Shown here: positions 19,587 through 64,000 of the stretch, piece by piece
How the letters are laid out: every line of letters begins with the position of its first letter
Position numbering within the stretch: the first letter of the stretch is position 1
NCBI GenBank assembly: GCA_963971535.1
Contig: OZ020588.1
Coordinates: forward strand, 122,534,887-122,598,886
DNA: 64,000 nucleotides
From: Notolepis coatsorum
Taxonomy: Eukaryota; Chordata; Actinopteri; Aulopiformes; Paralepididae
Reading direction: 5' to 3'
Position numbers and translations under genes: made by a program
Notes under the pieces: generated by a model
What the model was told of the DNA's origin: nothing
The model's database searches: none
The model's input: only the letters and a program-made list of their open reading frames with translations

Positions 19587-20522
19587 ATTGATGACATGCA
19601 GTGGCCCAGAGGGGAGCAATCGATCCCCAGTTCAGTGTGCAGTCTGCCCTGTAAGACAGGCGAGAGGAAGAAGGTGGTGAAAGGCATGCCGTGCTGCTGG
19701 CACTGTGAACCCTGTGATGGCTACCAGTACCGCTACGATGAGTTCTCCTGCAAGCTCTGCTCCTTCAACATGACGCCCAACCCCAACCGAACTGCCTGCC
19801 AGCCCATACCGATCGTCAAGCTGGAGTGGCACTCGCCCTGGGCGGTGATACCGGTGTTCCTGGCCATGCTCGGAATCATCGCAACTATCTTTGTCATGGC
19901 GACCTTCGTGCGCTACAACGACACACCGATCGTCAGGGCGTCGGGGAGGGAGCTTAGTTACATGCTTCTCACTGGGATCTTCCTGTGTTACATCATCACG
20001 TTCCTGATGATCGCCAAGCCGGATGTGGCCGTGTGCTCCTTCAGGAGGATCTTCCTGGGTCTGGGCATGTGCATCAGCTACGCCGCTCTCCTCACCAAAA
20101 CTAACCGCATCTACCGCATCTTCGAGCAGGGTAAGAAGTCGGTGACGGCCCCTAGACTGATCAGCCCCACCTCCCAGCTGGCAATCACCTCCAGCCTCAT
20201 CGCAGTCCAGCTGCTGGGGGTCTTCGTGTGGTTTGGCGTGGATCCACCCAATCCCTTCATAGACTATGATGAGCAGAGGACCATCAACCCACACTTGGCC
20301 CGGGGGGTGTTGAAATGCGACATCACAGATCTTCAGATCATCTGCTCATTGGGTTACAGTATCTTACTGATGGTGACATGTACTGTTTATGCTATAAAGA
20401 CCCGCAGGGTCCCGGAGAATTTTAACGAAGCCAAACCAATTGGGTTTACCATGTACACCACCTGCATCGTATGGCTGGCTTTCATACCCATCTTCTTTGG
20501 CACTGCACAGTCTGCAGAAAAG
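19587..20522 (+). CDS. grm7: Metabotropic glutamate receptor 7-like, large internal exon
   Basis: A 936-bp exon (312 codons, phase 0 at both ends) between acceptor TTTTCAG and donor AAAAG|GTAAGA. It encodes the end of the cysteine-rich NCD3G domain (about residues 14-75, nine Cys) and six of the seven helices of a family C GPCR. Group III receptors bind glutamate presynaptically and couple to Gi/o. Features favouring mGluR7 over 4, 6 and 8 include [49 protein letters not shown] and [13 protein letters not shown]. The exon stops after GTAQSAEK, just before helix 7, where this gene family has an intron. One odd residue: the KTRGVPE loop motif, constant in the group III sequences I know, reads KTRRVPE (AGG at 20406-20408). 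No flanking exon was found in the window, consistent with grm7's giant introns. Confidence 0.88.
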
Positions 20523-22118
20523 GTAAGAGATGCGCATGGGAGGGAGGGAGAGAAGGGGAGTGTCATGGATGGATAGATGGCTGGATAACTTAACCTGTGT
20601 CCCATGTAGAACCAAAATAGTTTGAAACCACCTACGGTAATGTAGAAACTTCACACCAGAAACCACTTTGAAAAGCTAACTTTAAACTCTTAAACAATTA
20701 TGAACTTTATCCTGTTTTATTTACTCTCTCTGAAATTAGACACAAGCTACTATCTCCCCATTAGAATTCATAGGCCATTAGTAATGTGGCTAGCGGCATC
20801 ATTAGCCTGATGGATTACAGACTATCCTCGGCTGCTATGAAAAATAATCGAATTTCCATGTATGTGATGAACAAAAGTGTTTTTCGATATGAAACACAGT
20901 TATCCCCATTTAACTATATGAAGATAAAATCTATTTACATTTTTTTTATATAATATTATATATAAAATGTATATAATTAAAATGGGGGCAATCTATAATG
21001 TTCTTGTTTTCTATGTCCAGGAAACCAGATGAAAGTTAATGCAGTAATCTCCATGAGATATTTCTTGAGAAGAATGATGTTGTTGTCGTCATACGTCTGT
21101 TCTGACTGCGGGCCTTGTTTGTTCTCATCACGTCGCTACTTGGTTCTGATGAAGCAATTACAGTGCAGGAAATTGAAGGTAGAAAAGAAAGCACAACAGC
21201 TGCTATCCCCAGGTGTTAAGCTGTCCTCCCATACTGTAGGTTGTCCGGCTCCTCGGAGACTGAACGTGATTGGGTTTTTTTTTTTTTACTACTGTTCTTT
21301 ATGGGGGTCGGTGGGTTATTACAGGTCTTTAGAGCCCTCTCAGTTTGATGTGATTGGCTTGTTTTCACCCTCAGTCAAAACCGGACATACATTTTGGGTT
21401 TTTTATAAGCACTTAAGGGATAAACAGTTTTTTTACGTTTACTCACCTTTCATTTAATTTGTATATGCATACTGTAGCCTACTGTAGCCAGACAGAGCCA
21501 TAGCCTGACGCCTTATGTAGTACATATCCAAATTTCATAAAGATCCATTCAGAAATGAGTGATTAGGAGTAATTTTGGTAAACTGTGTACAAAGAAAAAC
21601 TCAGTTTTTCTCTTCCTGTTAAAGACTTTAGTTTGTCACCTAGATCCATGTGGGGTATCATTGGAAGCCACACTCATTGGCTACAACGATTTACAATCAC
21701 TTTCGAGATCGGATCTAGATTGACGGAACTACTGCAGCCTGAGTCGGGAGTGGTATTTTGCGCAATACCGTGTACTTTGCACAAGCCTCAAATACCGGCA
21801 TGTGTCGGCAATACCGGCATGCCGCTCTGTGACATTGAGTAGGTTATTAAAATGGAATAAAAGCCAAAACAACCTAGCCACGGACATGTCCGTGGTTGGC
21901 CCTCTAGCGTTGGATCCGAAACACGGACATGTCCGTGGTTGGCCGGGAAACGGTTAAGAACAAAATTATAAGTAGACATTTAAGCCAGTATCACTATATC
22001 TGTGCACTTTACTGCTACTTACATTCTGGTACTTTTATGCAATGTTTAAATAAAAAAAGGATAAGAAAATATGTTTTAAGAACAACACAGGATGGAGAGA
22101 GAGACATAGAGATACAAT
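20523..22118. other. Probable intron downstream of the receptor exon
   Basis: No exon with the expected next segment (helix 7 and C-tail) was found here or further right. The region is AT-rich and ends in a zone with paired palindromes (21878-21939, listed separately) before the GAAA microsatellite. Confidence 0.6.
21878..21939. repeat. Duplicated 16-18 bp perfect palindrome
   Basis: CCACGGACATGTCCGTGG (21878-21895) is a perfect inverted repeat. The core CACGGACATGTCCGTG recurs at 21922-21937. Both copies are followed by GTTGGCC or the equivalent. The core GGACATGTCC fits the RRRCWWGYYY decamer. Just upstream, TACCGGCATG also occurs twice (about 21793-21822). It may be the end of an unknown repeat rather than a regulatory site. 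Confidence 0.6.
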
Positions 22119-24212: not shown

Positions 24213-27208
24213 TGCGCCCCCCCAGAATTCACAAGAACTGGCAGCATGAGCCGCTGAGGACCCCGTAAAATCCTGCCGAAGCGGCTTCGGGTGTCCAGAG
24301 TCTGTGTAGCGACGGGACCAGTCACCACCAGAGGGTGGTCTGAGGACTTAACGGCCAGGGGGAAACCCTGCGTCATGGCGGAACCCGTAGACCCCGGAGG
24401 GCGGTCTGAGGTTTTGATGGCCGGAGGGCGGCCGCGCGGCGGCGGCTGAGCTACAGGCACCGGACGGTCCAGGTCCACATGAGCCGGTTTCAGACGGTCC
24501 ATTGAAATGTGGTCCGGTTTCCCTCCTATTTCGACTACAAATGACTTGTCCCCTGTCTCCAGAACACGAAAAGGCCCCTCATATGGTGGCCGTAGTGGCG
24601 ACCGATGGGCATCCTGGCGGACAAAGACGTACTTTGCTGTATGGAGATCCGGTGGAATATAAGCCTGGGGCACAATGTGCTGTGACGTAGGCACCGGCCT
24701 AAATACCTTGGCATTGTCCAGGAAAACAGACCGTTGCTGGCCAGCAGACCAAGGCGTTGTGGTGTTGGGCATGAAATCCCCGGGGACTCGCAATGGCTGC
24801 CCATAAACCAGTTCGGCTGAGGAGGACTGAAGATCTTCCTTAGGGGCTGATCGGAGGCCCAGCATGACCCACGGAAGTCTGTCAACCCACCCATTGTCCC
24901 GAAGACTGGCCCTGAATGCGGCCTTCATTGACCTATGAAACCTCTCGCACAGTCCATTGACTTGAGGGTGATAAGCCGTTGTACGGTGCAGCTTTACCCC
25001 GAGACCCTGGGCCACAGCATTCCAGAGCTCCGATGTAAACTGAGGCCCCCGGTCGGAGGTTATATCCGATGGAGCACCAAAACGGGCAACCCAGGTGCCG
25101 ATGAATGCTCGTGCAATGTCGGCAGATGTAGTTGAAGATAGTGGCACGGCCTCTGGCCAACGGGTTGTCCTGTCAATCATGGTAAGGAGGTGGGTGCAAC
25201 CGTGTGATGGTGGCAGTGGCCCAACCAAGTCTATGTGCACATGATCAAACCGCCTCTCAGGCACTTTGAAAGGGGTTAGTGGGGCCTTGGTGTGGCGGTG
25301 TACCTTGGCCCGTTGACACTCTAGACAAGAATTAGCCCAATCCCGAACATCCTTTTTAAGACCGTGCCAGACGAACTTGGCTGCCACCAACAGCTGAGAT
25401 GGTTTCCTGCCCGGGTGAGAAAGGCAGTGAAGGGCGTCGAAAACACGCCTCCTCCAAGCGGCAGGGACAACAGGGCGAGGCTGCCCAAGTGAGATGTCAC
25501 ACAGGAGCGTAGAACCAGTGTCATTAAAAGAGATGTCCACCAACTGAAGACCTGTATCGGTGGTCCTACATACCTGCTCTTTGTCGGAAAGCTGATCGGC
25601 TGCCATCTGTGCATAATCAATCCCGAGGTGGACCATACTGATGATAGCACAAGAGAGGCAGTCGGCGACAGGGTTGTCCTTCCCGGCCACATGTTGGATG
25701 TCTGTTGTAAACTCCGAGATGGAGGACAACTGGCGTTGCTGGCGAGCGGACCATGGCTCTGAGACCTTGGCCATAGCAAAGGTCAACGGTTTGTGATCGA
25801 CAAATGCTGTGAATGGTCGGCCCTCCAACAGGAAACGGAAATGCCGTACCGCCAGATAGAGGCTGAGGAGGTCCCGGTCAAAGGTGCTGTAATTGCGCTC
25901 ACTGGCTCTGAGCTGCCGACTAAAAAAGGCAAGGGGTTGCCAGTGACCATCGACTAGCTGCTCATACACTGCCCCAACAGCATAATCTGATGCGTCGGTT
26001 GTGAGAGCGATCTGCGCCTCAGGTAATGGGTGCGCCAACATGGCCGCTGTAGCCAGGGCTTGCTTAGTGTTTTTAAAAGCTCCCTCCATCTCCTCCGTCC
26101 AGGTGAGAGTGAGCTTAGCAGGTTTGCCCTTGAGTGCCTCGTAGAGGGGCTGCATGAGCTGGGCTGCGCCAGGCACAAAGCGATGATAAAAATTCACCAT
26201 ACCCAAAAATTCCTGTAGTGCCCGGACGGTGGAGGGCTGCGAAAACTCGCTCACAGCCTGCACTTTCGATGGCAGAGGCACTGCCCCATCCTTTGTGATG
26301 CGGTGCCCGAGGAAATCAATTATTCGCAGTCCAAACTGGCACTTGGCTGGGTTAAGAATCAAGCCATGCTGACTCAGGCGCTCAAAAAGTGTGCGGAGGT
26401 GAACCATGTGTTCAGCCCTGGAGGAGCTGGCGATGAGGATGTCATCTAAATAAATGAACACGAAAGGCAGGTCCCTTAACACACTGTCCATGAGGCGCTG
26501 AAATGCTTGGGCAGCGTTCTTGAGCCCAAAAGGCATGCGGAGGAACTCAAAAAGCCCAAAAGGGGTGATTACCGCGGTCTTGGGAATGTCCTGTGACTGC
26601 ACCGGCACCTGGTGATAACCACGAACCAGGTCCACTTTAGAAAATATGACCTTCCCCGCAAGGCGAGATGAAAAGTCCTGAATGTGTGGTATAGGATAGC
26701 GGTCAGGGGTCGTAGCATCATTCAGGCGGCGATAATCACCACACGGGCGCCAACCTCCGGCGGCCTTTGGCACCATATGGAGTGGCGAGGCCCAGGGGCT
26801 ATTGGACCGGCGCACTATGCCGAGGCACTCCATCGCCTCAAACTCCGCTTTAGCAATAGCCAGTTTACCTGGATCCAGGCGCCGTGCACGGGCATGTACT
26901 GGCGGGCCTGCCGTCGGTATATAATGTTCCACACCGTGCTTAGCTGTAGCTGCTGAAAAAGTTGGCATGGTAAGAACTGGGAACTCAGCCAACATACTCG
27001 AGAACTCATAGGCAGTAAGGGTACTGGACAGCCTTGAGGAGCTAGAACCACTGAGTTCACATGGGAATGAGCTAAAAGTCTCTGCGCTGACCAAGCGCCG
27101 GTTTTTAATGTCCACTAGCAGCCCATGGACACACAAAAAATCTGCACCTAACAATGGGTTAGACACCTCAGCGGTAACAAACGTCCATGAGAAACGCTGT
27201 CCCTCCAA
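24188..27208 (-). CDS. CsRn1-like Gypsy Pol (end of PR, RT, RNase H, IN)
   Basis: 1006 codons without interruption. The first 25 residues are the end of the protease (LLGADFL). Reverse transcriptase: [11 protein letters not shown] (about 153-163), Asp in [12 protein letters not shown] (about 193), [15 protein letters not shown], catalytic YLDD (253-256). RNase [12 protein letters not shown] (Asp about 405) and VDHKPL, but the position normally Glu in FDRELL reads Asp (FDRDLL). Integrase: HHCC zinc region with the second pair in SCLECQRAK, Asp about 659 (HIDLVGP), Asp about 719 (TSDRGPQF), Glu about 755 (NGLCERFH), the DD35E pattern. The C-terminal tail is Pro-rich without a clear chromodomain. 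It is the largest intact retroelement frame in the window, though its element lacks most of gag. Confidence 0.93.
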
Positions 27209-31177: not shown

Positions 31178-32467
31178 CTATGTCGAGGACCGCCCCGAGA
31201 CATCATATCCGCGCCCATATTCTCTGCACCAGGGATGTGGAGCGCCCTCAGACTGCAAGATGCCCATAGCCAAAGTTCGACCGCCGCCCGGAGCAGGCGG
31301 ATGGAACGAGTCCCACCCTGCCTGTTGATATACGCCGCTGCCGTCATACTGTCTGTCCTGACCAAAAACGTGCTCGCCTACCACCAGGTGGTTGAACCGT
31401 TTGAGGACCAGGAGGACCGCCTTCAATTCCAACACATTGATGTGCGGGGTAGACGGGCCAGCATGAACCTCCGTCCAGCTGCCCCCCACTGCGTGGGTCC
31501 GACACGTCCCTCCCCAACCCGTGAGAGAGGCGTCGGTGAAGACCGTGACGTGTGAGCGCCTGCTGCCCATGGGGACCCCAAGGGTGAGGATACCCAGCCT
31601 CTTCCAATGGGCGAGATCTCCCCATATGGACAAAGGAACCGTCAACCGTTTTCATTTGTCCCTCACCGGATCTATTCCCATAGAGAAAAACCACCTCTGT
31701 ATCCTCCTCATGAAGAGGAGGCCAAGAGGAACCACCGTGTGAGATGCCATCATACCGAGCAGACGCATCACTTGCAGCGCCCGGACCGTCCCTCCCAGAC
31801 GGAAACCCCAGAGCGTGCGAATGATAGACACCCGGCGCTGCTCCGAGAGGGTTACAATCATGGGCCTCGACCTCAACATCAAGCCCAAGTACTCCACCTG
31901 TTGACTGGGAAGAGGTGTACTCTTCTTCCAATTCACAGCAAAACCCAGCCTGGTGAGGAATTCCTGGCAACCTCCTCCGAACGACTGAGGAGTAGAATGT
32001 CGTAGAGATAGAATAGAACCCGTATCCCCCGACGACGTAGAGGCTCCAGCGCAGTCGCCACGCACTTGGTGAATGTGTGGGGAGCCAGAGAATAGCCGAA
32101 CGGCAGCCTCTGGTACTCGTACGCTACGCCCTGAAAAAGGAACCGTAGGAACTTCCTGTGAGGAGGGAAAATCGGAATGTGAAAATACGCATCCTTCAGG
32201 TCTATGGAGGTGAACCAGTCTCCCCTTCTGACAGCAAGCAGAAGGAGTTTGACGGTCGACATCCTGAACGGTCTCACTACAATCAACCGATTGAACGCGG
32301 ACAGATCCAGTATAGGTCTGACCCCCCTGTTTTCTTGGGTACCAGAAAATAACAGGAGTAGACGCCTGACAGCGCGTCCTCTCTCGGAACCACGACGACG
32401 GCCTGCTTCGCCAACAGAGATTGGATATCGTCGGCCAGGGCTGTCACTGCTTCTGACCCTGACAATA
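31178..32467 (-). pseudogene. DIRS copy A: reverse transcriptase and RNase H
   Basis: Several minus-strand frames follow each other with small shifts. RT begins LSGSEAVTALADDIQSLLAK and FLVPKKTGG (32467-32290), then DWFTSIDLKDAYFHIPIFPP with the first catalytic Asp, and LPFGYSLAPHTFTKCV (about 32200-32030). The active-site box reads FYLYDIL where DIRS elements have YLDD, so one catalytic Asp is now Tyr. Later, FLTRLGFAVNWKKS and VEYLGL (about 31960-31880), and RNase H with TDASLTGWGG and HINVLELKAV (31550-31400). Multiple frameshifts make it inactive. Confidence 0.85.
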
Positions 32468-32710
32468 CCCAGATAGCAAAAAATCGTTGAATCAACATTG
32501 TGTTTTTGTCAGGCTGATGATTGGAATCAACATTGATATCAGACATAGAAAATGGCATTGAAAGTGCTCGCTATGATCAACATGGAAAGAACATTGGATT
32601 TTCAACCAAAATTTAGAAATTTCAATTTGAAAGCCGACAATGAATCAACGTTGATTCAACTATGATATGAGGAACATTGAAATAATGTAGCATTGCATCA
32701 ACATTGATTC
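32468..32710. repeat. Left terminal and subterminal repeats of the giant transposon
   Basis: A 14-bp TIR followed by repeated GAATCAACATTG (32489, 32523), ATCAACATGG, GAATCAACGTTGATTCAAC (32642, palindromic) and GCATCAACATTGATTCAAC (32696). Both orientations occur. The right end (45140-45324) has TTTCAACATTG and the complementary AATGTTGAAATGG. Confidence 0.8.
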
Positions 32711-32754
32711 AACTATATATATATATATTGCATTATACATTGAAATAATGATAT

Positions 32755-33066
32755 TATTGAATGACCATTTCAGCACTTTTTCAACCTTCCTCTGTATGCT
32801 TTTAATATGCCTCATTAATAAAGAAAAATAATCACTTTACATCTAAATTATATTATTAGTTGTAGTTCCACCGGGAGCATGCTAAAAGGTGTCTACTAGT
32901 GACATTACTGCCATATGCCTGAATGGCAGTGATGTCACTGATAGACAGGCTTGGAGCAACCCCTGCAGAACTTTAAAACACCAAATAGAGCAAAGTGATT
33001 ATTTTTGGCTTAAATGAGACATATTAAAAACATACAGAGGAAGGTTGAAACATGCTGAAATGGTCC
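32755..33066. mobile_element. Fold-back MITE
   Basis: The left arm (32763-32840, with TTTCAACCTTCCTCTGTATG and ATAATCACTTT) is repeated inverted at 33062-32985. The centre is itself palindromic (GTGACATTACTGCCAT against ATGGCAGTGATGTCAC, 32900-32940). About 310 bp, no coding sequence. Confidence 0.75.
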
Positions 33067-33079
33067 ATATGCTTTACTG

Positions 33080-33251
33080 CAGTGGTTCTCAACCTTTTTA
33101 TACAAAGACCTCACAGGAAAAATATTTGGGGACTCCAAACTTGATTATAATTATGCCATTCTAGGTGAATATTCGAAAATATGTTGCAAGCTTGTAGATC
33201 GGCTATTTCGAATTTTTTTCTTCTTCAAGAAACCAAGGTTGAGAACAGCTG
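33080..33251. mobile_element. Small hAT (Charlie-like) MITE
   Basis: 172 bp. Ends are CAGTGGTTCTCAACC and, inverted, CAGCTGTTCTCAACC, the classic Charlie-type terminus. Flanks CTTTACTG and CTTTACGA match in six of eight bases, a decayed TSD. Confidence 0.75.
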
Positions 33252-33309
33252 CTTTACGACATGCTCTATGAACAAAGAAACAGACAATTTATTGCTTTAA
33301 CCATTTATT

Positions 33310-34060
33310 AAAGCCAATTAATTCGCATACATATTCTTTGAAATGCCTCTCTTTCTATTAGACTTCGATGCCAACTATGCACGTGGCTCCAGATCAGCTG
33401 ACATTCAGCTGACTCTCCCATACAAAAATGACAGAATAATAAGTTATTGAAAATATTCATACAGAACTCTGAACCTTCGCACATACATATTCTCTTTGAA
33501 ATGCCTGAGTTCAATTTGGATTTAGTATCACCAGGCGTGCATGAGAACAGATAATGAAATCTACTGTAATGTACAGTAGCTTTTTTATTTGATCAGGGTG
33601 GCACCATTGAAACTATTTAATGATGCGTGTCCCTTCTCTTTCTATTAGACTTCGATGCCAACTACGCACGTGGCTCCAGATCAGCTGACATTCAGCTGAC
33701 TCTCCCATACAAAAATGACCGAATAATAACAGTTATTGAAAATATTCATACAGAACTCTGAACCTTCGCACATACATATTCTCTTTGAAATGCCTGAGTT
33801 CAATTTGGATTTAGTATCACCAGGCGTGCATGAGAACAGATAATGAAATCTACTGTAATGTACAGTAGCTTTTTTATTTTATCAGGGTGGCACCATTGAA
33901 ACTATTTAATGATGCGTGTCCCTTCTCTTTCTATTAGACTTCGATGCCAACTACGCACGTGGCTCCAGATCAGCTGACATTCAGCTGACTCTCCCATACA
34001 AAAATGACCGAATAATAACAGTTATTGAAAATATTCATACAGAACTCTGAACCTTGAACC
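33310..34060. repeat. ~288-bp tandem array containing an exon-derived block
   Basis: About 2.5 units (CTCTTTCTATTAG starts at 33349, 33636 and 33925). Each unit holds CTATTAG followed by ACTTCGATGCCAACTACGC and GTGGCTCCAGATCAGCTGAC. In inverted orientation this matches the acceptor and first 40 bp of exon 9 of the DUF4806-like gene (38345-38286). The rest of the unit (GAGTTCAATTTGGATTTAG, GTACAGTAGCTTTTTTATTT) recurs once at 43788-43888 near the other end of the transposon. Confidence 0.85.
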
Positions 34061-34320
34061 CCTATAGAATCTTCCAGGAAGTGTTGTTTTCCAAAATTCC
34101 AACGCAGAATCAAATCTAAAAGTTAAATCTATCTAAAAACACTTTTACCTATTGCTAAACTAAGTATAATACTTCAGAGTATTATAGAGACACATTAGAG
34201 ATGTACATCTATATAATATATTCACATCCACACTATAAATAGCATCCATTAATCCATCATTAATCATCACTCCATTCAGACTACCGACTACTGACAACCT
34301 TCTGAACTTGAATAAGCATG

Positions 34321-34740
34321 CAAAACCAACAATTAGCATTTCAGGTGGCAGACTGCCTCTCCCGGGCGCACGTCAGCCCTGTGCACCCGGGCATCGACTA
34401 TGCTGCCATGGCTGCTGACCAGCTCACCGACTCAGACCTTCAGGCGTTCAGGACGGCTGTGACAGGACTTCGACTTGAGGCTGTGGTGTTTCACGACAGC
34501 GGCGCCACGCTCCTCTGTGACGTCTCCACTGGCCAGCCCCGCCCCATGGTTCCAACTGACTGGCGCCGCCGGGTATTTGACACCATTCATGCCCTTTCAC
34601 ACCCTGGGGTAAAGGCGTCGGTCAAGTTGGTAGGGGCCAAGTTCGTCTGGCCGGGCCTTAGGAAGGACGTCAAAGTATGGGCGGCCTCCTGTGTGGCGTG
34701 CCAGCGTGCCAAGGTACATCGTCACACTAAGGTCTGGAGG
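34321..34740 (+). pseudogene. CsRn1-like Pol fragment (end of RNase H to integrase zinc domain)
   Basis: About 140 codons matching the element at 24.0-27.8 kb from VADCLS through HPGIDYAAMAADQL, DSGATLLCDVSTGQPRP, WRRRVFD and the HHCC zinc region (H-SHPG then [14 protein letters not shown]). Plus strand, opposite to the other copy. It ends abruptly in the G-rich minisatellite, so the catalytic core of integrase is lost. Confidence 0.88.
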
Positions 34741-35776
34741 GGGGCTGAGTCTAAACTAGGGGGTGGTCCTGAGGGGGGCTGAGTCTAAACTAGGGGGTGG
34801 TCCTGAGGGGGGCTGAGTCTCAACTAGGGGTGGTCTGGAGGGGGGCTGAGTCTAAACTAGGGGGTGGTCCTGAGGGGGGCTGAGTCTCAACTAGGGGTGG
34901 TCTGGAGGGGGGCTGAGTCTAAACTAGGGGGTGGTCCTGAGGGGGGCTGAGTCTAAACTAGGGGGTGGTCCTGAGGGGGGCTGAGTCTAAACTAGGGGGT
35001 GGTCCTGAGGGGGGCTGGGTCTCAACTAGGGGTGGTCTGGAGGGGGGCTGAGTCTAAACTAGGGGGTGGTCCTGAGGGGGGCTGAGTCTCAACTAGGGGT
35101 GGTCTGGAGGGGGGCTGAGTCTAAACTAGGGGGTGGTCCTGAGGGGGGCTGAGTCTCAACTAGGGGTGGTCTGGAGGGGGGCTGAGTCTAAACTAGGGGG
35201 TGGTCCTGAGGGGGGCTGAGTCTAAACTAGGGGGTGGTCCTGAGGGGGGCTGAGTCTAAACTAGGGGGTGGTCCTGAGGGGGGCTGAGTCTAAACTAGGG
35301 GGTGGTCCTGAGGGGGGCTGAGTCTCAACTAGGGGTGGTCTGGAGGGGGGCTGAGTCTAAACTAGGGGGTGGTCCTGAGGGGGGCTGAGTCTAAACTAGG
35401 GGGTGGTCCTGAGGGGGGCTGAGTCTAAACTAGGGGGTGGTCCTGAGGGGGGCTGAGTCTCAACTAGGGGTGGTCTGGAGGGGGGCTGAGTCTAAACTAG
35501 GGGGTGGTCCTGAGGGGGGCTGAGTCTAAACTAGGGGGTGGTCCTGAGGGGGGCTGAGTCTAAACTAGGGGGTGGTCCTGAGGGGGGCTGAGTCTAAACT
35601 AGGGGGTGGTCCTGAGGGGGGCTGAGTCTCAACTAGGGGTGGTCTGGAGGGGGGCTGAGTCTAAACTAGGGGGTGGTCCTGAGGGGGGCTGAGTCTAAAC
35701 TAGGGGGTGGTCCTGAGGGGGGCTGAGTCTCAACTAGGGGTGGTCTGGAGGGGGGCTGAGTCTAAACTAGGGGGCC
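34735..35776. repeat. G-rich 33/34-bp minisatellite, main block
   Basis: About 30 units of two interspersed types. The 34-bp type has CTAAACTAGGGGGTGGTCCTG then AGGGGGGCTGAG; the 33-bp type has CTCAACTAGGGGTGGTCTGG then the same end. Runs of one to four 34-mers are separated by single 33-mers, a higher-order pattern typical of unequal exchange. G-runs of 4-6 on one strand give quadruplex potential. Confidence 0.95.
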
Positions 35777-36094
35777 TCAGGCTCTCTGAGCGCCGACTCG
35801 ACTTGACTCCTCTCGGGGGTAAATCCAACACTCACAGGCGTCGGCGATTATCCGCTCCACAAATCACAGTACCAAAGCAAATATATATTCCAGCCGCACA
35901 GGGCTATGCAGTCGTCGGGTAGGTAATCCAGTGTACATGTCCATTCGGTCCTCGCCTAGATCTCCTCGGATGAAAGCGCCATGTGGTCGGCCCAGCCTGG
36001 ATAAGACTCTAGATAACACGAGGAAGCGTTGGAGATGCTGGTCACTTTAGAACTCTAACCGCACGATGCACCATACACAATAGACTATTATTAA
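35777..36094. other. Unidentified 318-bp insertion within the minisatellite
   Basis: Non-repetitive sequence between two minisatellite blocks, flanked on both sides by TAAACTAGGGGG. Contains CCTCAGGCTCTCTGAGCG at the left and ends near CACAATAGACTATTATTAAC. No coding domain. It could be a solo LTR or unique sequence that separated the two blocks; I cannot decide. Confidence 0.4.
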
Positions 36095-36390
36095 CTTAAA
36101 CTAGGGGGTGGTCCTGAGGGGGGCTGAGTCTCAACTAGGGGTGGTCTGGAGGGGGGCTGAGTCTAAACTAGGGGGTGGTCCTGAGGGGGGCTGAGTCTAA
36201 ACTAGGGGGTGGTCCTGAGGGGGGCTGAGTCTCAACTAGCGGTGGTCTGGAGGGGGGCTGAGTCTAAACTAGGGGGTGGTCCTGAGGGGGGCTGAGTCTA
36301 AACTAGGGGGTGGTCCTGAGTGGGGCTGAGTCTCAACTAGGGGGTGGTCCTGGAGGCTAAATTAGGGGGTGGTCCTGGAGGCTAAACTAG
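36095..36390. repeat. G-rich 33/34-bp minisatellite, second block
   Basis: About eight more units of the same minisatellite, the last ones degenerate and shortened (GGTGGTCCTGGAGGCTAAA, twice). Confidence 0.93.
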
Positions 36391-36523
36391 GGGCTAAACA
36401 TATGCACGCACGCATGCACGCGACAGCTGCAACCAGAGATGCTGGAGATAAATGTTGCCCCTGGATCAGCTTCCAATGATCCAACTCCCATGAAACCCAC
36501 TGTCCTCCAAACCATTTGTCCTT

Positions 36524-39500
36524 TTAAGTCTTTGTCTTTCTTCGTATCCCGCCATTCCTCTCAGGTGCATAACGCAGCCACTTCTGCAGTGCATCTCTGT
36601 ATATCAAGTCAGTCAACTTGCGGTCAAATTGACGAGCAGCCGCTGGGAAAAAAGAAAAAAAGAATACTTAAAGATAAACAAGAAAGCTGCAGTGGGCACG
36701 TTACATTCCAAAGTGAACAGTGTCCTTTTAGTGTACTAGATTTTCAGGTGGCCTTAGGTGCATTTTCAACCCCATAGTCATATAATTGATCCACATTAAT
36801 GCTCGTAAAAAATCTTATTGTGAGCATTACAGAGGACCACTTATATGACGTTAAGGTTGGAAATGGGTGAGGTGTTTCTTTAAGAGTGGTTGCATGTTCC
36901 ATCAGGCTCATTCCATGGTGATAAAAATGCATCCATTCGTATTTACTTGAGATAAAAGTGAAAATACTTAATTAAATGAAATATCCATCATCAAAATAGC
37001 TAAATCCACTGTAGTAAACCTAGTATTTTGAGGTGCAGATTGACTCACCAAACATGCAGTCCTGCATCAGTGTGTCCTTGAAGGCCCTCGTCGGTCCCTT
37101 TCCCGCCCAGTTGAAGATGCATGCTAGACAGTTTGTCATGGTAGCGGATAGCATTCGCCGGATCATATTTTCTGAGTTGGTCCCTCCGATTAATGCCAGG
37201 CGGGTTGTCTTAACAGATTGGAGAGGAAAAAAAGTGAGTGTGCTAAAGTGTACATTGTACTATGTCAAATGGACAGAATATGATGTTTTAAGTACACATT
37301 TTAAGACTTTTTTTTATTAACTCTAAAGAAAGACCATTACTGTGTCAAAACTCAACAAACAATACCATCAAACAAATTAGCTAAATGAATTGTCAAATAT
37401 TGACTAAGAAATAAATATCATCCCGCATATCATTGCAAGGCTATTTTCACAATATTTCTATGCCAAGCACACATCCAAGCAAAAAACTAAATAAATGCCT
37501 CCACTCCTACAATTCAGACATTATAAACACTTAGATTTCAAACAATAAATTTTTAACAAAATACAAAAATGTTAACCATCTTTCGACGGACTGTTTCGTC
37601 CTTCAGTGCAGCTTCAGCCTCATCAAACTGCTCCTCATTGGTGAGTGGCAGCACGATGGAGAAGTTCTCTTCTCTCTGTGATTCAGGTCCAGCTCCGTGA
37701 TCGTTAAAGGTGGATTTAGCCATTTCAGTCTTCAGAAACTGAACGTCATGTGAAATTTGCTTCACCTCCACGAGTAGCTCTGCAAGCATCCTGGTGTTTT
37801 TGTTGGCAGCAAGGTCTTGAAGAAAAACAATTGGTTTTACATTAAATTTCAAGGATAGATTCACCATTTCAATCATTTAGAATGACACTAAGCAATAAGG
37901 GCCTTCAGCACATTCAAATCACGTCTAATTAAAGGGATCATCACATGACAACAACGTTACTATTTACATTTAAATGTGACGCTTAAGTCTTTGCACCCCT
38001 AACTTATAGTAACCATTAAGTGCTTAAATATTAAGCCTATAAACACCATGACAAATTACATGAAAAAAAAAAGTGACAAAGACTGTAAAGTCACAAGGGA
38101 CATATGTTTCTCAATGCATCAGAAAATGATACTTGCCTTGTAACATTTGACTGGGCTCTCCATGGAATCTTCCCCACGGCGTTTCAGGAGCTGAAGCTGA
38201 AGAAATCAACATGGCATCAGCATTGCACATTAGGTAATTGTGTATGGGGGAGGCGGGGGGTAAAGTGGAATATAGGCATCTTTACCCAGGCGATGTGAGT
38301 TGAAGTCAGCTGATCTGGAGCCACGGCTATAGTTGGCATTGAAGTCTAATAGAAAGAGAATAAAGGACACACATCATTGTTTACATTGAACACGAATTAT
38401 GGAATTTTACCCAAAAAAACAACATTTAAGATGAGAAATGCATACCATTCCTTGCTCGCTCTGATGGCACAGTGTGGTAGGGGCTGGAGTTATACATTGG
38501 CTTTCCTAGAGAAAGAGCGACAGAATTAACAAAATAAGGTAAGCACCATCAAAGTATCAATGAGGACCATATACAGTAGCAAGCAAAAGACATACCATTC
38601 CTTACTTGTCCAGTGTGGTTCCCTCCTGAAATGGATTAAAATAACCGTAATTAGTCACTGTAAAATACAAGTTCTCATATAATATCATGCCAACATTAAC
38701 AGCTCATTGCAAAATAGTGAGACACTGAATAAGCTACTCATATATGCACTCAACTTTACATTTCCACCCATTTAACTAACATTTCCAGTCAGTAAGGTAT
38801 CCAGTAAGGCAGGACTAGTAATCCAACCGCCACCTATTGAAACAGACTGGAGACACAAGAGTGGCTGAGAGAATCACATAGCTATATCTAGTTTATTAAT
38901 CTACTTACCATCATTGCAGTGGTCCATTGACTCCAACTGTGCCAAGAAGCTTCCACCAAAGCCTAAAATGAGAGAACACAACAAAACATGAACAATGAAT
39001 GCTATCAAAAGCACATTTACAATCTGTCCACCGGCTCCACCCTGACTTAGTAGTGTGAAGTGATTCACTTACCATTATTAGGCTGGTTATTCTCCGAGCA
39101 GCTTCCTCCAGAGACCGAGCAGCTTCCTCCAGAGACTAAAAGAAGGGAACACAAGACATGAATAGTGGACACTGTAACTTTTGAACACATAACCTGACTG
39201 ATATGTTTGGATGTATTGACAGAGGAACTAAATGCTTGTAAAGCTCTCATGCAACTACATTTTGTTCTGCTATGTTAGTAAATAATGACATACCACTGCT
39301 TGCATTTGATGTTGGCACCGAGGGGTACTGGCTGGATTCTGGCTGCACTGTATTAATAAATAAATGGAATTATACATGGCAATACTTAAAGTAGGTGTAG
39401 CAGTTAGTGTCATAACTGACAAGTGTCACCACTATACCTGGGAAATGAACATCAGGTGGCTTGGCATATCGTCGCGTCACCCTGCTGTCTGGCTCTTCAT

Positions 39501-40073
39501 CTGACTCCACTGCGTGCATATGATTTGTCCTAAAAAAAAAACATTTAACATTCCCAGGCTCCCAGGATAATTCAATTAATTGAGCAATCCTTGAGACACT
39601 GTTCAGGAGCCAGCCCATGGCCCATTTCTGTTTAACCAAAAACTATCACGAGGAATTCAACTGTACCTTGCTCTTCTTTTCCGACGTACATCTGCTTCCT
39701 CTTCAGATTCCAAATCAGTGGTTAGACATCCAGTAGTCACGTACTTGTCTTCATGTTGCTTGGCCTTTAGAAATGAGTCTGTAAAAGAACAAGCAGAAAA
39801 TACAGCATGACATTAATAAGAAGTATGAGGAACAATTCACATCAGACAATAGCAGTGACTATACTTACCACAAGTAATTAAGAGCCGAATTTTGTCATAT
39901 GTGGTCCATCCTTCACAGGGCATCATGTTTTCTTTAAGGGCCTTTGAATAATTTGTGTTTTTTGGGGGCCATAATAATGTACCTTCCGTTGGATTGAACC
40001 AGCTGGAAAGAACTGTTGCAGTTCCGCCATTTGGAAACAGTACAACGCCCCAGAGCACCACCTCACTTTCCAT
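36524..40073 (-). CDS. DUF4806-like transposon accessory protein, 13 exons
   Basis: I assembled this gene by eye. Coding exons (minus strand): 40073-39869, 39778-39667, 39529-39438, 39347-39294, 39135-39073, 38962-38909, 38625-38596, 38505-38446, 38345-38286, 38196-38137, 37815-37577, 37208-37049, 36642-36524. All junctions have AG acceptors and GT donors, except a GC donor after exon 10. The joined frame is 1308 bp, 435 codons plus TAA, with no stop. The N-terminus (VLWGVVLFPNGGTATV, WPP, K-ALKE...GWTTYDKIRLL) resembles the N-terminal module of DUF4806 proteins. A basic patch (VRRKRRAR) ends exon 2. Exons 11-13 hold a helical stretch, then the DUF4806-like core LALIGGTNSENMIRRML and WLRYAPERNGG. 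Function unknown; a DNA-binding or regulatory partner of the transposase is my inference. Confidence 0.78.
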
Positions 40074-40092
40074 TCTGTGTACAATAAATTAA
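40074..40092 (-). promoter_or_regulatory. Splice acceptor immediately 5' of the DUF4806-like ATG
   Basis: The minus strand reads TTTATTGTACACAG|AATGG after a T-rich stretch (40095-40140). This allows an upstream exon, perhaps 5' of the transposase, to be joined to this gene with the transposase removed as an intron. Confidence 0.5.
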
Positions 40093-40148
40093 ATTAGAAT
40101 ATTAATGATAAAAAAATTATAATGACAAAAACATGAATCATAAGATGT

Positions 40149-42284
40149 CTACTGCAGATGAGCTATTGGAATAGCTATGAGGCTATTTCCCTCTGGATAC
40201 AGAACACATTTACGTTTAATAAAGCTAATTTTACCAACCCCGATCTCATCACACAACTCTCTAACCTTGTATGTACCTATGAGGGAGGACTCGCAGGGAT
40301 AAGTGTAATATAATTCTTGGTGTCTGAACTTTCTGTAGATCACATAGACCTCACCTTCTTCCTGGACTATATTCTGCACTACTGCAATTGTATCTCCCAT
40401 CTGAATACAATTATCCCCCTGCTTTGTAGACAAGGTAAAACGACAACTGGAGACCTTTGTGTACTGTAGAGCAACACTGAAATGTTGAGGAAGTGGACCA
40501 TCAGTATGAATGTGCTTTAAAACTGGTTGATCTGTTGCTAATGGAACCTCAACATGTGGCATTTCTGACAGCCTTTTGACTACCTGTTGTAGAGGTTGGT
40601 GTGGCTTGCGTAAAAGATCCTTTATTTGGCCAAGATAATTCTCAAAAGGGAACCCTGAAACATTATCTAAAGGTCCAAATTGTTTGTATTCATCTGCTAA
40701 ATGTATAAGCTGGTGGACACTGAACACAATCTCACCCGTATCATACAACTGTCCAAAGTGGCCCACAAAGGATATCATTAATCTATGTGCAAATTCAACC
40801 ATTTGGCCAGAAGTTCCAGGAGACAAAAACAAATACATGGCCACTGAAAACAACATGAAGTTGTCATAAAACTCACTGGGAAGGCAATCCTTCAGAACTA
40901 CAGGACCCCAGTATAACATGAAGGATCGGAGCTCAGTAGCTTTCCAACGATCAAGCTCATTCAAACCTCTTGGCTTGCGATTGAATTCAACAGGGGTGTG
41001 GGAATGTAACACCAGCAGTTTGCTTGATATACTGTTAACTGTTTGTGAAGGAAGCCTAGTGGCTAGATTGCCCTTTAACCACATATGCAACAGTTTTCTC
41101 ATCAACCCAAGACAACAGAGGTGCATATAATCTATTGGGAATGAAGAAACCATCTTTACTATCCCTGTTAAAGGACTGAGTTTCTGTTTCAAGTGGTGTT
41201 CCTCATCAATCATATCACAATAACTCGAATCCGTCCTGAGCCTGACATTTGTTTCTGGATACGTCATTTTGTTCCTCCACACACCCTCTTGGTCACACTT
41301 GTCACACCCTGAATAACCATTATGTGACTTAATATTCTTAACGTAGGCCCTAGCAGGAGCATCACACACAAATGAGGAAACCTGTACATTCAATTTCTTA
41401 CCATTATGAACAATGCCATTAGCCAGCACATTTTTAAGGTCGCTAACAGATTTCTGCAGATACTCAACAACACACTTTGGCTTGCTTAAACCACTAAATA
41501 TACCGACAATAAATGGGGACTTAGTGTAATCACAATTCAGGATTGCAAGTATAGGCCAGAATTGAAGTCTTGAACTCCTAAAGAGGGGGAGATCATCTAT
41601 ATTGAACTGTAAAGTAAGAGTTGTGAGGTTCACTGGTAAACTTAAACATTTTAATCGTGAAAGTATTCCTCGCACCAATCCAAAATGATAGTACTCGCCA
41701 CCTTGCATTTGAGTGGTTGCAACATGAGATTGTGTTCCAAGCAGAGTCCTTCCATCTTTAGGGAGCTTAGGGTGAAATAGCTTTAAGATGGACAGCAGAG
41801 CAGACAAAGCAACAAGACTAATGGAGTAGGATGTTGCCCAATATCTTAGGCTCCTTATAAGCAGATCCTGACTAGGCGGCTGCTCCTCATCGCTCTCATA
41901 GTGAGAATCTGATTCATCTTCATCATTGCCAGCTTCATCGTCTATATCATCATTTTCCATTTGCACATGATCAACTTCATTTCGAGCTACTGCACTACCA
42001 TCAGAATGATCATTTTTCATTTGCACATCGGACTCAACTTCATCATTGCCAGCTACACTGCCATCTATATGACCATTTTCTATGTCTACATGTGAAGCTG
42101 GTAGTGCATCTAGTTGGGAAAAGTGTGAGCTTGTGAAGGCAGGTTCCCTATTCACACAGGGGTAAATATTTTCTCTTTGATTATGCAGAGATTCCTCATA
42201 TTCCTTAAGGATATCTTTCTCTATGCCCCTTACAGTTCGAATGACTCTACGTCTTTTAGCCCAATACGATTCATAAGAAGCCAT
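40149..42284 (-). CDS. EnSpm/Tnp2-like DDE transposase
   Basis: 711 codons in one exon, uninterrupted. A short basic N-terminus (KRRRVIRTVRG) and an acidic region with three imperfect repeats (residues about 67-135, Asn-Asp/Glu-rich) are followed by a catalytic region whose landmarks parallel plant CACTA Tnp2 (Transposase_21). First Asp in NIDDLPLF (about 230), followed by FWPILA. Second Asp in CDAPARAYVK (about 308), followed by a C-x2-C knuckle (GCDKC, about 327-330). DYMHL (about 385) corresponds to LDxMH. Then HQLIHLADEYKQFGPL and the acidic residue of FPFENYLG (about 548). It would bind and cut the transposon ends. No domain is visibly broken, so it may be functional. Its stop lies 75 bp before the next gene's ATG. 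Confidence 0.85.
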   Translation of the reverse strand: MASYESYWAKRRRVIRTVRGIEKDILKEYEESLHNQRENIYPCVNREPAFTSSHFSQLDALPASHVDIENGHIDGSVAGNDEVESDVQMKNDHSDGSAVARNEVDHVQMENDDIDDEAGNDEDESDSHYESDEEQPPSQDLLIRSLRYWATSYSISLVALSALLSILKLFHPKLPKDGRTLLGTQSHVATTQMQGGEYYHFGLVRGILSRLKCLSLPVNLTTLTLQFNIDDLPLFRSSRLQFWPILAILNCDYTKSPFIVGIFSGLSKPKCVVEYLQKSVSDLKNVLANGIVHNGKKLNVQVSSFVCDAPARAYVKNIKSHNGYSGCDKCDQEGVWRNKMTYPETNVRLRTDSSYCDMIDEEHHLKQKLSPLTGIVKMVSSFPIDYMHLCCLGLMRKLLHMWLKGNLATRLPSQTVNSISSKLLVLHSHTPVEFNRKPRGLNELDRWKATELRSFMLYWGPVVLKDCLPSEFYDNFMLFSVAMYLFLSPGTSGQMVEFAHRLMISFVGHFGQLYDTGEIVFSVHQLIHLADEYKQFGPLDNVSGFPFENYLGQIKDLLRKPHQPLQQVVKRLSEMPHVEVPLATDQPVLKHIHTDGPLPQHFSVALQYTKVSSCRFTLSTKQGDNCIQMGDTIAVVQNIVQEEGEVYVIYRKFRHQELYYTYPCESSLIGTYKVRELCDEIGVGKISFIKRKCVLYPEGNSLIAIPIAHLQ

Positions 42285-42324
42285 CTTAACCCATTAACTC
42301 CCGGATTGAAAGGTATATAATAAC

Positions 42325-43066
<742 letters not shown>

Positions 43067-43306
43067 ATAATAACGTATAGGTTACAACAGGTCTAAATAG
43101 AAAAGAGGTGGTGCTGATTATAATTTTTTTGTTATTACTTGGCCTTTTTTTTGCAGTGAACCCTCCAGTCCTCTTCTCTTGTAGCACAACCCTGAAAATA
43201 GAGGGGAAAAAATTATTAAAATAATATATGCATAAAACAAATATATATATCTGCCAAATTATTAATTTATCAGGTCCTTCCAACATATTTTAAAATATTT
43301 AACCTC

Positions 43307-43495
43307 TTCCACCCGGAGCCTATTTTCTGAAAATCCGCCTAAAATATATACCTAGGTAAATGGAATATTGCTCCACTTCTACAAGGGCCATTTGCATATT
43401 CTTGTATAGCGTCATCTATCTATCTAATGTATATTCACAGTGTCAGAAATATTGTGTCTATTACTAGGCTTGCTTAAATTGTGATGAAACAAAGG
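43307..43495. repeat. Block shared with 56.15 kb and 63.95 kb
   Basis: CCACCCGGAGCCTATTTTCTG to GGGCCATTTGCATATTC matches 56153-56250, and CAGTGTCAGAAATATTG to TGATGAAACAAA matches 63944-64000. In the second location the two parts are separated by the hAT-like element at 56265-63939. Either a fragment of a sister copy of the giant transposon lies there, or this is an independent repeat. Confidence 0.8.
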
Positions 43496-44304
43496 AGAAT
43501 ATTAATTATGATTTTTCTTTGCATCTTTGACAGTGAATAACACCATGCTAATAATGACCAAACATTAAAAACTGCCACTGATCTTGTTCAATACCTTCTT
43601 GAGTGTAAAATAAATAAAGGGAAGATTATTAAACAGAAGGTTCTGTAGATACTGTACTGAATTCTCCCATCCGGACCAATGTAATTTGAAATATTATCAT
43701 AGAATATACAATAGCAGGCTCATAAATTACCTTATTATAGCCAATTCGCACATTTATATATATACATATATTATCTTTCAAATGCCCGAGTTCAATTTGG
43801 ATTTAGTATCACCAGCGTGCATGAGAACAGATAATGAAATCTACTGTAATGTACAGTAGCTTTTTTATTTTATCAAGGTGGCACCATTTTGAAACTTTTC
43901 AAATCTAATTGTTGCTGAATGCTAACAATAGGGAAGATAAACTAACTATGTTTCAATATTTGTCATAAACGTTACCTTTTGTGGTAGAATGATCTCGAAT
44001 AATAGCAGTTATTGGAATCATTCTCGAAGTCAACTTCCTTTCTGTTTAACTTTCTGTCTAAGTGCATGTCTATGGCTTGGGGGGGAAACATACACTTTAG
44101 AATCACCAGAAAGGCTTTCGAAATAGTGAAATGCCATGTTGGCCTCAATATTTTCAAAACTAATTATATGAAAAGGTTATGAAATCAACAAGAATGTGGT
44201 AAAATATGTAATAAAAACAGAGCTCAACGCAGACATTTGATCAGTAGAAATCCATTTGTTTCCCCCATACAAAGATGGCGCCGTTCTCGTGACGTCAGAG
44301 TGTA

Positions 44305-44812
44305 GCTGACGTTAGCTTGCTAAGCTATCAGATTCGCATGGTCTGTATAGCTGGCTAAAGCCAGCAGACTCGCATGGTCGAGCTGACGTTAGCTTGCTAA
44401 GCTATCAGATTTGCATGGTCTGTGTAGCTGGCTAAAGCTAGCAGACTCGCATGGTCGAGCTGACGTTAGCTTGCTAAGCTATCAGATTCGCATGGTCTGT
44501 GTAGCTGGTTAAAGCTAGCAGACTCACATGGTCGAGCTGACGTTAGCTTGCTAAGCTATCAGATTTGCATGGTCTGTGTAGCTGGCTAAAGCTAGCAGAC
44601 TCGCATGGTCGAGCTGACGTTAGCTTGCTAAGCTATCAGATTTGCATGGTCTGTGTAGGCTAAAGCTAGCAGACTCGCATGGTCGAGCTGACGTTAGCTT
44701 GCTAAGCTATCAGATTCGCATGGTCTGTGTAGGCTAAAGCTAGCAGACTCGCATGGTCGAGCTGACGTTAGCTGGCTAAGCTAGCAGACTCGCATGGTTG
44801 AGCTGACGTATA
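44305..44812. repeat. 72-77 bp tandem array near the right end of the giant transposon
   Basis: About 6.5 units of GCTGACGTTAGCTTGCTAAG...CGCATGGTCGA. Each unit is itself two related halves (GCTAAGCTATCAGATTCGC and GCTAAAGCTAGCAGACTCGC, each followed by ATGGTC). Some units lack a GCTGG step. The array lies in the probable promoter region of the minus-strand genes. Confidence 0.9.
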
Positions 44813-45315
44813 GCTGACGTACGTTAGCTCGCGCTGTTATAAGTTAACGCTACTTTCCAGGCCGGGGGTTTTGACATTTTCAAACCGTGAAACCGGTTAC
44901 CGGCACATGCCTAATGTGAATAGCATAATACATTATATTGTCAAGGACTTACCAAAGACGTGTGCGCACTTGACTAGTCACGCTGAATGAAGACACCATG
45001 GCGCCAAGTTTTTCTTTTAATGCCTCAAGTCCCGTGAGATCTTCTAGCTGGCCTCACGAGTTGCTTACGACCTACCCCCTCGAAGGGGAGGGGGGAGGGG
45101 AGGGGGGATTATCAGCACTACGTTGTAACCATGTAATTTCATTGTTGGGCATTTCAACATTGAAAAACAAGCATCTATACTAAATCGATTCAACAACAGT
45201 TTTTCAAATGTTGAAATGGTGTCTGTAATTTAGATATTGAATAAACATAGCTTTTTCAACCTCAACCAAAAATAACCAATCTGACCAAAATCCAACATTT
45301 AATTAATGTCTTTTG

Positions 45316-45537
45316 CTATCTGGGTAGGGTCGGCACCAAACCTGAGAACGGAGGGTGGGGTTGTGCGAACTGCAAAACAAGCCCCTCCATCAACGTTCTC
45401 TCTATCCACCCCTCCAAACGGCATTCTTGTCGCCATATGTGAAAATAATCCCACAGCGCACCTGCCGTCAACTGACGCTGGGCCGCAAGGAACAGTAGAT
45501 AGTTGGCCCGGTCCCTCCCGCTGTGCGACGCACCCAA
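45316..45537 (-). pseudogene. DIRS copy A: N-terminal pol segment, right of the insertion
   Basis: The minus-strand frame ends QFAQPHPPFSGLVPTL, the standard entry to DIRS reverse transcriptase, and is cut by the transposon at 45324. Its continuation LSGSEAVTAL lies at 32467. It overlaps the end of gag in another register, as is usual in DIRS elements. Confidence 0.88.
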
Positions 45538-55440: not shown

Positions 55441-56256
55441 TTTATAACTCATTATCAACATTGTTTGTACTTGATTTTGTTCATCATTAAATAATGTTGT
55501 TTAATGTGTAGTAACACATTTGTAGATGCTTTGAAAAATGGATATGAAAAAACGACTATACTGTACCTCCATTTATTTGTTCATGTTCAACAAATGATTT
55601 GTTAAGACATTCATAAAATATCTATAAATCATTTGCAGATGCTATTGTGTGCCCTAATCTAATGTGAAGCCTATTCATCATTAACAAATGTCTAATAGTT
55701 TGTTTATTTGTGGACTTTTATGAATACACACGAAGCAATTACCAGACTTGTCTTTTCATGTTTAACAAATGATTTGTTAAGACATTCATAAAACATCTAT
55801 AAATCATTTGCAGATGCTATTGTGTGCTCTAATCTGAAGTGAAACAAACACATAATTCAAATGTAACGTTAGCGCCCACCACATCAAGTACGTTTACACA
55901 ACATAATAAGAGTTGTAGGTCGGAAATGATGGAATAGATTTACCAACAAAAAAGATGTTTAGCCTGCTCATACCTTAAAGGCGTGGTGCAGCACGAATAA
56001 CTTGGCTCTGCTAATGTATCGTGCTTCCATTCAACAGACGGTAACACACTCGTGTGATACTTCCTCTACATACTCTGTCAATACCTGGCAAGGGTACTCC
56101 TCGGTCCTAGTGCCCCCACGTTACACTATATGTTATGCACCTGTATTTTATATTCCACCCGGAGCCTATTTTTTGAAAATCTGCCTAAAATACATACCTA
56201 AGTAAATGGAATATTGCTCCACTTCTACAAGGGCTATTTGCATATTCAGTGAATGT
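55441..56256. repeat. AT-rich repeat with ~175-bp duplication, then block shared with 43.3 kb
   Basis: AACAAATGATTTGTTAAGAC to GATGCTATTGTGTGC occurs at 55579-55655 and again at 55756-55832 in tandem. From about 56153 the sequence matches 43307-43424 of the giant transposon. No coding sequence. Confidence 0.7.
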
Positions 56257-63939: not shown

Positions 63940-64000
63940 ATTCCCAGTGTCAGAAATACTGAGTCTATTACTAGGCTTGCTTAAATTGTGATGAAACAAA

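Follow-up and report, generated by a model that had tools for sequence, protein, structure and literature searches.

A window of 64,000 nucleotides from Notolepis coatsorum, the whole 64-kb stretch of DNA that was analysed, includes a TA-flanked DNA transposon of 12,857 bp at positions 32468-45324. The terminal inverted repeats are perfect in 14 of 14 bases, with CCCAGATAGCAAAA at 32468-32481 (plus strand) and its complement at 45311-45324 (minus strand), and the likeness of the two ends fades past base 14. The element begins and ends as CCCAGATAGC...GCTATCTGGG, i.e., CCC..GGG, and this one insertion is bordered by the two copies of the TA target duplication at 32466-32467 and 45325-45326. The only exact matches to the 14-mer in the window are the element's own ends; four near matches, each with three mismatches, bring the total to six, which is at chance level (shuffle mean, 6.79). 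In all, 27 pairs of perfect 14-bp inverted repeats with flanking TA, spaced 1-20 kb apart, occur in the window, the element's pair included; 40 Markov shuffles averaged 0.025 such pairs, with a maximum of 1. Of the 20 pairs listed from these 27, one other (55264/62816) is isolated and a further 18 belong to three clusters of longer inverted repeats.

The ends of the element stand out among these inverted pairs because of the reading across the junction. When the unit plus one TA was excised in silico, a minus-strand frame was open through the junction (45402-45325, then 32468-32331). Ends that include the TA, with no duplication at all, were rejected because the open frame of the empty site requires that one TA stays. 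A piece of the flank was identified by Pfam as reverse transcriptase (RVT_1, E = 1.9e-14), and no Pfam match was obtained for the four longer flank ORFs (4/4) or for one further flank piece. The flanking retroelement, presumably DIRS according to the label of the original prediction, carries its own frameshifts farther out, so that the restored reading is local. The original prediction regarded the boundaries as being at the level of proof and a DIRS pol frame as restored. For the present insertion the ends, the TA and the open junction with RVT_1 nearby agree with this; as statements about the family, the ends, the TA rule and the activity rest on this single copy, and the restored frame is a local one in an element for which DIRS is a label. 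The length of 12.86 kb is swollen by nested repeats, which include a fragment resembling the window's own gypsy element, a minisatellite with a unit of 34 bp, a stretch of GT and others. Rfam gave no match at gathering score within 32400-45400.

The transposase

The transposase is encoded on the minus strand in a single exon at 40149-42284, with 711 stop-free codons from 42284 to 40152 followed by the stop at 40151-40149, and the original description of it as intact holds. Scoring of 7994 candidates yielded 933 relatives at E 0.001, of which 120 were listed. Among these listed matches the closest named ones are fishes (Gymnodraco, 82% identity; Mugilogobius, 73%; Coilia, 62%; Metynnis, 58%), and a Xenopus relative shares 39% identity. 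In an alignment of 57 sequences (56 of the listed relatives and the window copy), D230, D308, H524, H528 and E548 were kept in all 57, and C327 and C330 in 56, the remaining one having a gap. All seven catalytic and zinc-type positions are kept in the window copy, which also has D at position 231, beside the first catalytic residue, where the other 56 have G.

The only Pfam match of the window transposase was DUF4218 (E = 0.013), and tnp2 (PF02992) did not match it at E 1. At E 0.01, DUF4218 matched 41 of the 57 aligned transposases, Transposase_21 matched three, and DUF1258 touched one (E = 0.0099); one relative (P0075) reached 27.6 bits with tnp2 (PF02992) vs a cut-off of 28.6. Searches of viral and prokaryotic contig collections, which are little informative given the types of collection, found no transposase relative, and the viral fold library gave 0 matches at E 0.001.

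The predicted structure assigns residues 139-581 (40542-41870, minus strand), which include the seven positions listed above, to a catalytic core of the RAG1/Transib fold. It also points to a BAH-like domain at residues 585-704 (40173-40532, minus strand), named from the predicted fold alone. BAH-bearing chains made up 15 of the best 50 fold matches, all on residues 583-708, and RAG1/Transib was the sole other fold among those 50. The BAH match is weak (Foldseek E = 0.045), and the entries for DNMT1, MET1 and ZMET2 that lack BAH in the title were presumed to be BAH-bearing from the domain positions of these proteins. Neither Pfam and profile searches with the transposase alignment nor a search of solved chains detected BAH by sequence, and the tail is therefore called BAH-like only. 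Candidate positions of a methyl-lysine aromatic cage are Y650 (Y in 37/57) and F653 (F in 48/57), with R651 and K652 variable between them.

The partner gene and its linkage to the transposase

The second gene (gene 2) lies on the same strand and begins 75 bp downstream of the transposase stop. Its model is open over 435 codons, with 13 exons and 12 introns, 11 of them GT-AG and one GC-AG. Exon 1 (39869-40073), with the ATG at 40073 and an AG one base upstream, encodes an N-terminal WPP-containing domain. It is followed by exons 2 (39667-39778), 3 (39438-39529), 4 (39294-39347), 5 (39073-39135), 6 (38909-38962), 7 (38596-38625), 8 (38446-38505), 9 (38286-38345) and 10 (38137-38196), the last with the GC donor. 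Exon 11 (37577-37815) encodes a long helix, which was seen in the predicted model of a relative (P0121), and the start of the DUF4806 domain, exon 12 (37049-37208) the core of this DUF4806/BEN-like domain, and exon 13 (36524-36642) the end of the protein and the stop. The C-terminus matched DUF4806 (PF16064) at E = 5.4e-7 and 30.3 bits vs a cut-off of 25, in agreement with the 13-exon gene and DUF4806-like C-terminus that had been proposed.

The predicted structure of this C-terminal domain matches the BEN fold; the first 12 VIA rows were all BEN, with Bsg25A counted as a BEN protein, and the match is weak (Foldseek E = 0.44). Profile searches did not detect BEN in gene 2 by sequence. The domain is a predicted DNA-binding domain. 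According to PMC11075544, Pan et al. 2023 reported DUF4806 (PF16064) to be a subtype of BEN. The alignment used for the structure work on gene 2 (A3) kept partial or fused gene models, P0144, P0136, P0130 and P0139 among them. A match of the A3 profile to Raptor (best E = 6.6e-11) was attributed to the last part of P0144 and set aside; it was lost in a smaller set without P0144, and P0139, tested alone, had no Raptor match. The last part of P0144 looks like Raptor, which suggests that P0144 is a chimeric gene model. Relatives of gene 2 occur as several different copies in several fishes. None was found in the viral contig collection, a type of collection that makes this result little informative.

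Relatives of the two genes are joined in predicted proteins of other fishes. In Metynnis, one protein (P0017) consists of transposase, 58% identical, followed by DUF4806, and another (P0152), for which a longest contig of another length is given, of the transposase end followed by gene 2 from what seems to be its own Met, with 60% identity over 136 residues. In Brachyhypopomus, a transposase part with 43% identity is followed by the WPP domain (P0105). The gene order in all three is that of the window element. Metynnis is a characiform and Brachyhypopomus a gymnotiform, while the nearest relative, Gymnodraco, is a perciform in which both genes have an entry (P0001 for the transposase, P0133 for gene 2), the two giving an identical length for their longest contig (696,206). 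Of the transposase homologues listed (120), two also contain gene-2 sequence (E 1e-3). When the gene-2 part of P0017 served as query, P0152 was the one match besides P0017 itself in 1519 candidates. Such fusions probably depend on a gene predictor joining neighbours, so the absence of joined models is uninformative; the positive cases are nonetheless few. Judging from these joined models, the transposase and gene 2 seem to travel as a unit. The prediction of a DNA transposon with two genes is supported, and P0017, P0152 and P0105 favor the view that the DUF4806 gene is cargo or a partner of the transposon. The wider proposal that DUF4806 is a transposon rather than a host family is tentative, as linkage is seen at these few fish loci only.

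Position among known systems

The element fits the wider EnSpm/Mirage/Chapaev/Transib (RAG1-related) group. Its EnSpm kinship is shown by the DDE residues together with C(2)C and H(3)H, and by the predicted RAG1/Transib fold, and not by the Tnp2 Pfam model. Filing under Transib was rejected on the target duplication, TA here vs 5 bp in Transib, and Harbinger was not pursued further, given that RAG1/Transib gave the best fold matches. According to PMC12730594, the EnSpm/Mirage/Chapaev/Transib set has in common a DDE transposase that carries C(2)C and H(3-4)H, and the alignment of 57 transposases has the C(2)C and H(3)H pattern. The same paper gives the ends of this wider group as CA..TG in most cases and the duplication as 2-5 bp (PMC12730594). 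The TA of this one insertion lies within that range, and the CCC..GGG ends do not exclude the element from the group because CA..TG holds only in most cases. CACTA/EnSpm elements have CACTA...TAGTG ends, a 3-bp target duplication and a second ORF that, in specific families, aids both excision and transposition (PMC4158355). The present element shares with them a DDD/E transposase and a second ORF between the ends, but differs in its CCCAG ends, the TA duplication, the DUF4806/BEN-like second protein and the lack of a Pfam tnp2 match for the window copy. Strict CACTA was rejected on the ends (CCCAGATAGC...GCTATCTGGG vs CACTA...TAGTG) and on the duplication (TA vs 3 bp). The original assignment to the EnSpm/CACTA Tnp2 type thus stands for the EnSpm group and fails for strict CACTA. 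What sets the element apart in the RAG1-related EnSpm group is the TA duplication, the CCC..GGG ends, the BAH-like tail and the BEN-like spliced partner.

En/Spm likewise has repeats near its ends and a second gene that is heavily spliced. PIF/Harbinger elements combine a transposase with a separate DNA-binding partner, as predicted here, but their transposase and partner families differ from those of the present element. The Harbinger element Nuwa carries a Myb/SANT partner (PMC12730594). The predicted fold of the catalytic core is shared with Transib/RAG1 (ProtoRAG), from which the element differs in its 8-13% identity in the fold rows, the TA duplication, the BAH-like tail and a partner that is BEN-like and not RAG2-like. 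By description, a TA duplication is also a feature of ESTA, a set of EnSpm-like elements reported from fungi, some families of which carry TET/JBP genes (PMC12730594). ESTA shares the TA, the similarity to RAG1 and a transposase that is related to EnSpm and contains C(2)C and H(3-4)H, and differs in being reported from fungi and in its TET/JBP families. DUF4806 proteins share with gene 2 a PF16064 match above the cut-off and a BEN-like predicted fold, but here the gene lies inside a bounded transposon beside a transposase. For Hydra, PMC7642931 gives DUF4806 counts of 69 and 54. Among the literature matches listed, no title or abstract start linked an EnSpm-type transposase with either DUF4806 or BAH, although a named Repbase/Dfam family may exist, and a search with the first ten bases of the element end listed no transposon paper by title.

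Proposed mechanism and alternative readings

We consider it probable that the locus holds a DNA transposon of the cut-and-paste type with two genes and a complete structure, belonging to the RAG1-related EnSpm/Mirage/Chapaev/Transib group. The transposase would excise and insert the element through its RAG1/Transib-type DDE core, and its BAH-like tail may contact chromatin, biasing the insertion site. The partner, with its WPP domain, long helix and BEN-like domain, may be the counterpart of the second CACTA protein and would bind TCAACATT-type repeats near both ends, bringing the ends together. Such repeats are found at the left end as TCAACATT/TCAACGTT motifs (32492-32706; element positions 25, 60, 178 and 231) and at the right end as TCAACATT/CAATGTTGA motifs (45154-45214), and AATGTTGA is the 8-mer most common to both ends. 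The two 300-bp ends contain five TCAACATT/AATGTTGA motifs, a count equalled by 4 of at most 2000 random pairs, pairs less than 1 kb apart being skipped. By analogy to the second CACTA protein, which aids excision and transposition, these repeats would be natural sites for the BEN-like domain.

In maize En/Spm, two proteins arise from one leader through alternative splicing, and both proteins of the present element may be produced in the same way. The 75-bp spacing between the genes and the AG one base before the ATG suggest that gene 2 is spliced from a leader shared with the transposase, and the original view of gene 2 as independent is consequently doubtful. A candidate leader exon on the minus strand (44953-45005, where 45005 is a working bound for the 5' limit) would have its ATG at 44999 (GCCATGG) and a donor, TTG|GTAAGT, at 44953. 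With splice matrices trained on gene 2's own 11 GT donors and 12 acceptors, 716 GT sites of the minus strand were scored, and this donor, about 370 bp inside the right end, ranked highest once the modelled donors of gene 2 were set aside. The acceptor at 40074 ranked only 77 of 886, and one promoter with splicing choosing between transposase and partner is for this reason a guess with even chances.

A different interpretation, which we regard as unlikely, is that the element is an ordinary EnSpm/CACTA-like one and that the BAH-like and BEN-like matches reflect generic folds. The DUF4218 (41/57) and Transposase_21 (3/57) matches of the aligned transposases at E 0.01, the weak Foldseek values (BEN, 0.44; BAH, 0.045) and the fact that neither domain was found by sequence are in line with it. 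Generic folds do not fit well with BAH being the only fold besides RAG1/Transib in the best 50 rows (15 of them, all on 583-708) or with the top 12 VIA rows of gene 2 being all BEN, and the ends and duplication are unlike CACTA. Gene 2 could also be a passenger, a host DUF4806 (BEN-like) gene captured by the transposon and dispensable for movement. DUF4806 proteins are widespread, four of them in zebrafish, encoded on chromosome 4, the sex chromosome, are discussed as possible chromatin factors (PMC11075544), and gene 2 has 12 introns vs none in the transposase ORF. Nonetheless, capture appears improbable, as order and orientation are kept beside transposase relatives of 58% and 43% identity in Characiformes and Gymnotiformes, gene 2 is open across 13 exons and several different copies of it exist in several fishes. 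Fish Angel-type MITEs may have arms similar to the ends of the element. That the 14-bp ends come from such an unrelated element (e.g., MITE-type, with GTTGAATCAACATTG arms), the two-gene unit lying within a composite insertion, is very improbable: the copy is single, further repeats are nested in it and CCC..GGG is unusual for a group with CA..TG in most cases, but both ends have subterminal motifs in common, both genes are complete between them and TA fits the group's 2-5 bp range (PMC12730594).

Under the reading of a complete two-gene transposon, the element is a bounded, open vertebrate relative of the RAG1/Transib/EnSpm group whose partner function is directly testable. If the BAH-like and BEN-like readings are true, it would be a transposon that moves by cut-and-paste and brings its own readers of chromatin and DNA, which would bear on site choice by RAG-like recombinases. 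We tentatively propose, as a possibility that falls short of an even chance, that an animal lineage of RAG1-fold transposases has its own BAH chromatin reader and is mobilised with a DNA-binding partner of the BEN type, a pairing that would independently parallel RAG1 and the PHD-bearing RAG2, and that a sizeable part of the annotated fish DUF4806/BEN genes are transposon partners and not host chromatin genes. Fish DUF4806 genes may include transposon cargo and should be interpreted with caution.

Coding sequences of the transposase and gene 2

The transposase of the window copy has D rather than G at the position adjoining its first catalytic D (residues 230-231, 41592-41597), while G occupies that position in the other 56 of the 57 aligned transposase sequences. 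Within and at the edge of exon 5 of gene 2, the multi-exon partner gene, there is a perfect 21-bp direct repeat (39094-39136), the length of which is a multiple of three. Gene-2 sequence was also found fused with other proteins in two gene models from other fishes, P0144 (Ameca splendens) and P0136 (Boreogadus saida). Such fusions reflect either chimeric annotation or the splicing of transposon sequence into genes of the host.

Repeats and insertions inside the transposon

A 289-bp unit is present in 2.5 copies at 33348-34055 and includes, in inverted orientation, the greater part of exon 9 of gene 2 along with the acceptor of that exon, as well as sequence that recurs at 43768-43902. This repeat with its inverted exon 9 copy is an internal rearrangement of the transposon. 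The region at 34345-36393 contains a fragment sharing 66% identity with the gypsy polymerase at 25285-25669, followed by a 34-bp minisatellite.

Upstream of the transposase, the region at 42313-43075 consists of sequence judged by eye to be palindromic and MITE-like, and includes a 103-bp GT run just before the ATG; the MITE-like sequence or the GT run may disturb the candidate leader of the window copy. Short stretches at 43307-43493 probably belong to a dispersed repeat of the Notolepis coatsorum genome, since relatives with about 95% identity are located at 56153-56247 and 63940-64000. Closer to the right end, about 0.5-1 kb inward, a 77-bp unit is tandemly repeated 6.5 times (44304-44798).

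Host gene in the window

When eight window ORFs were run together against Pfam, the only clear host gene was a class C receptor exon at 19545-20576 (7tm_3 match, E = 2.8e-70).
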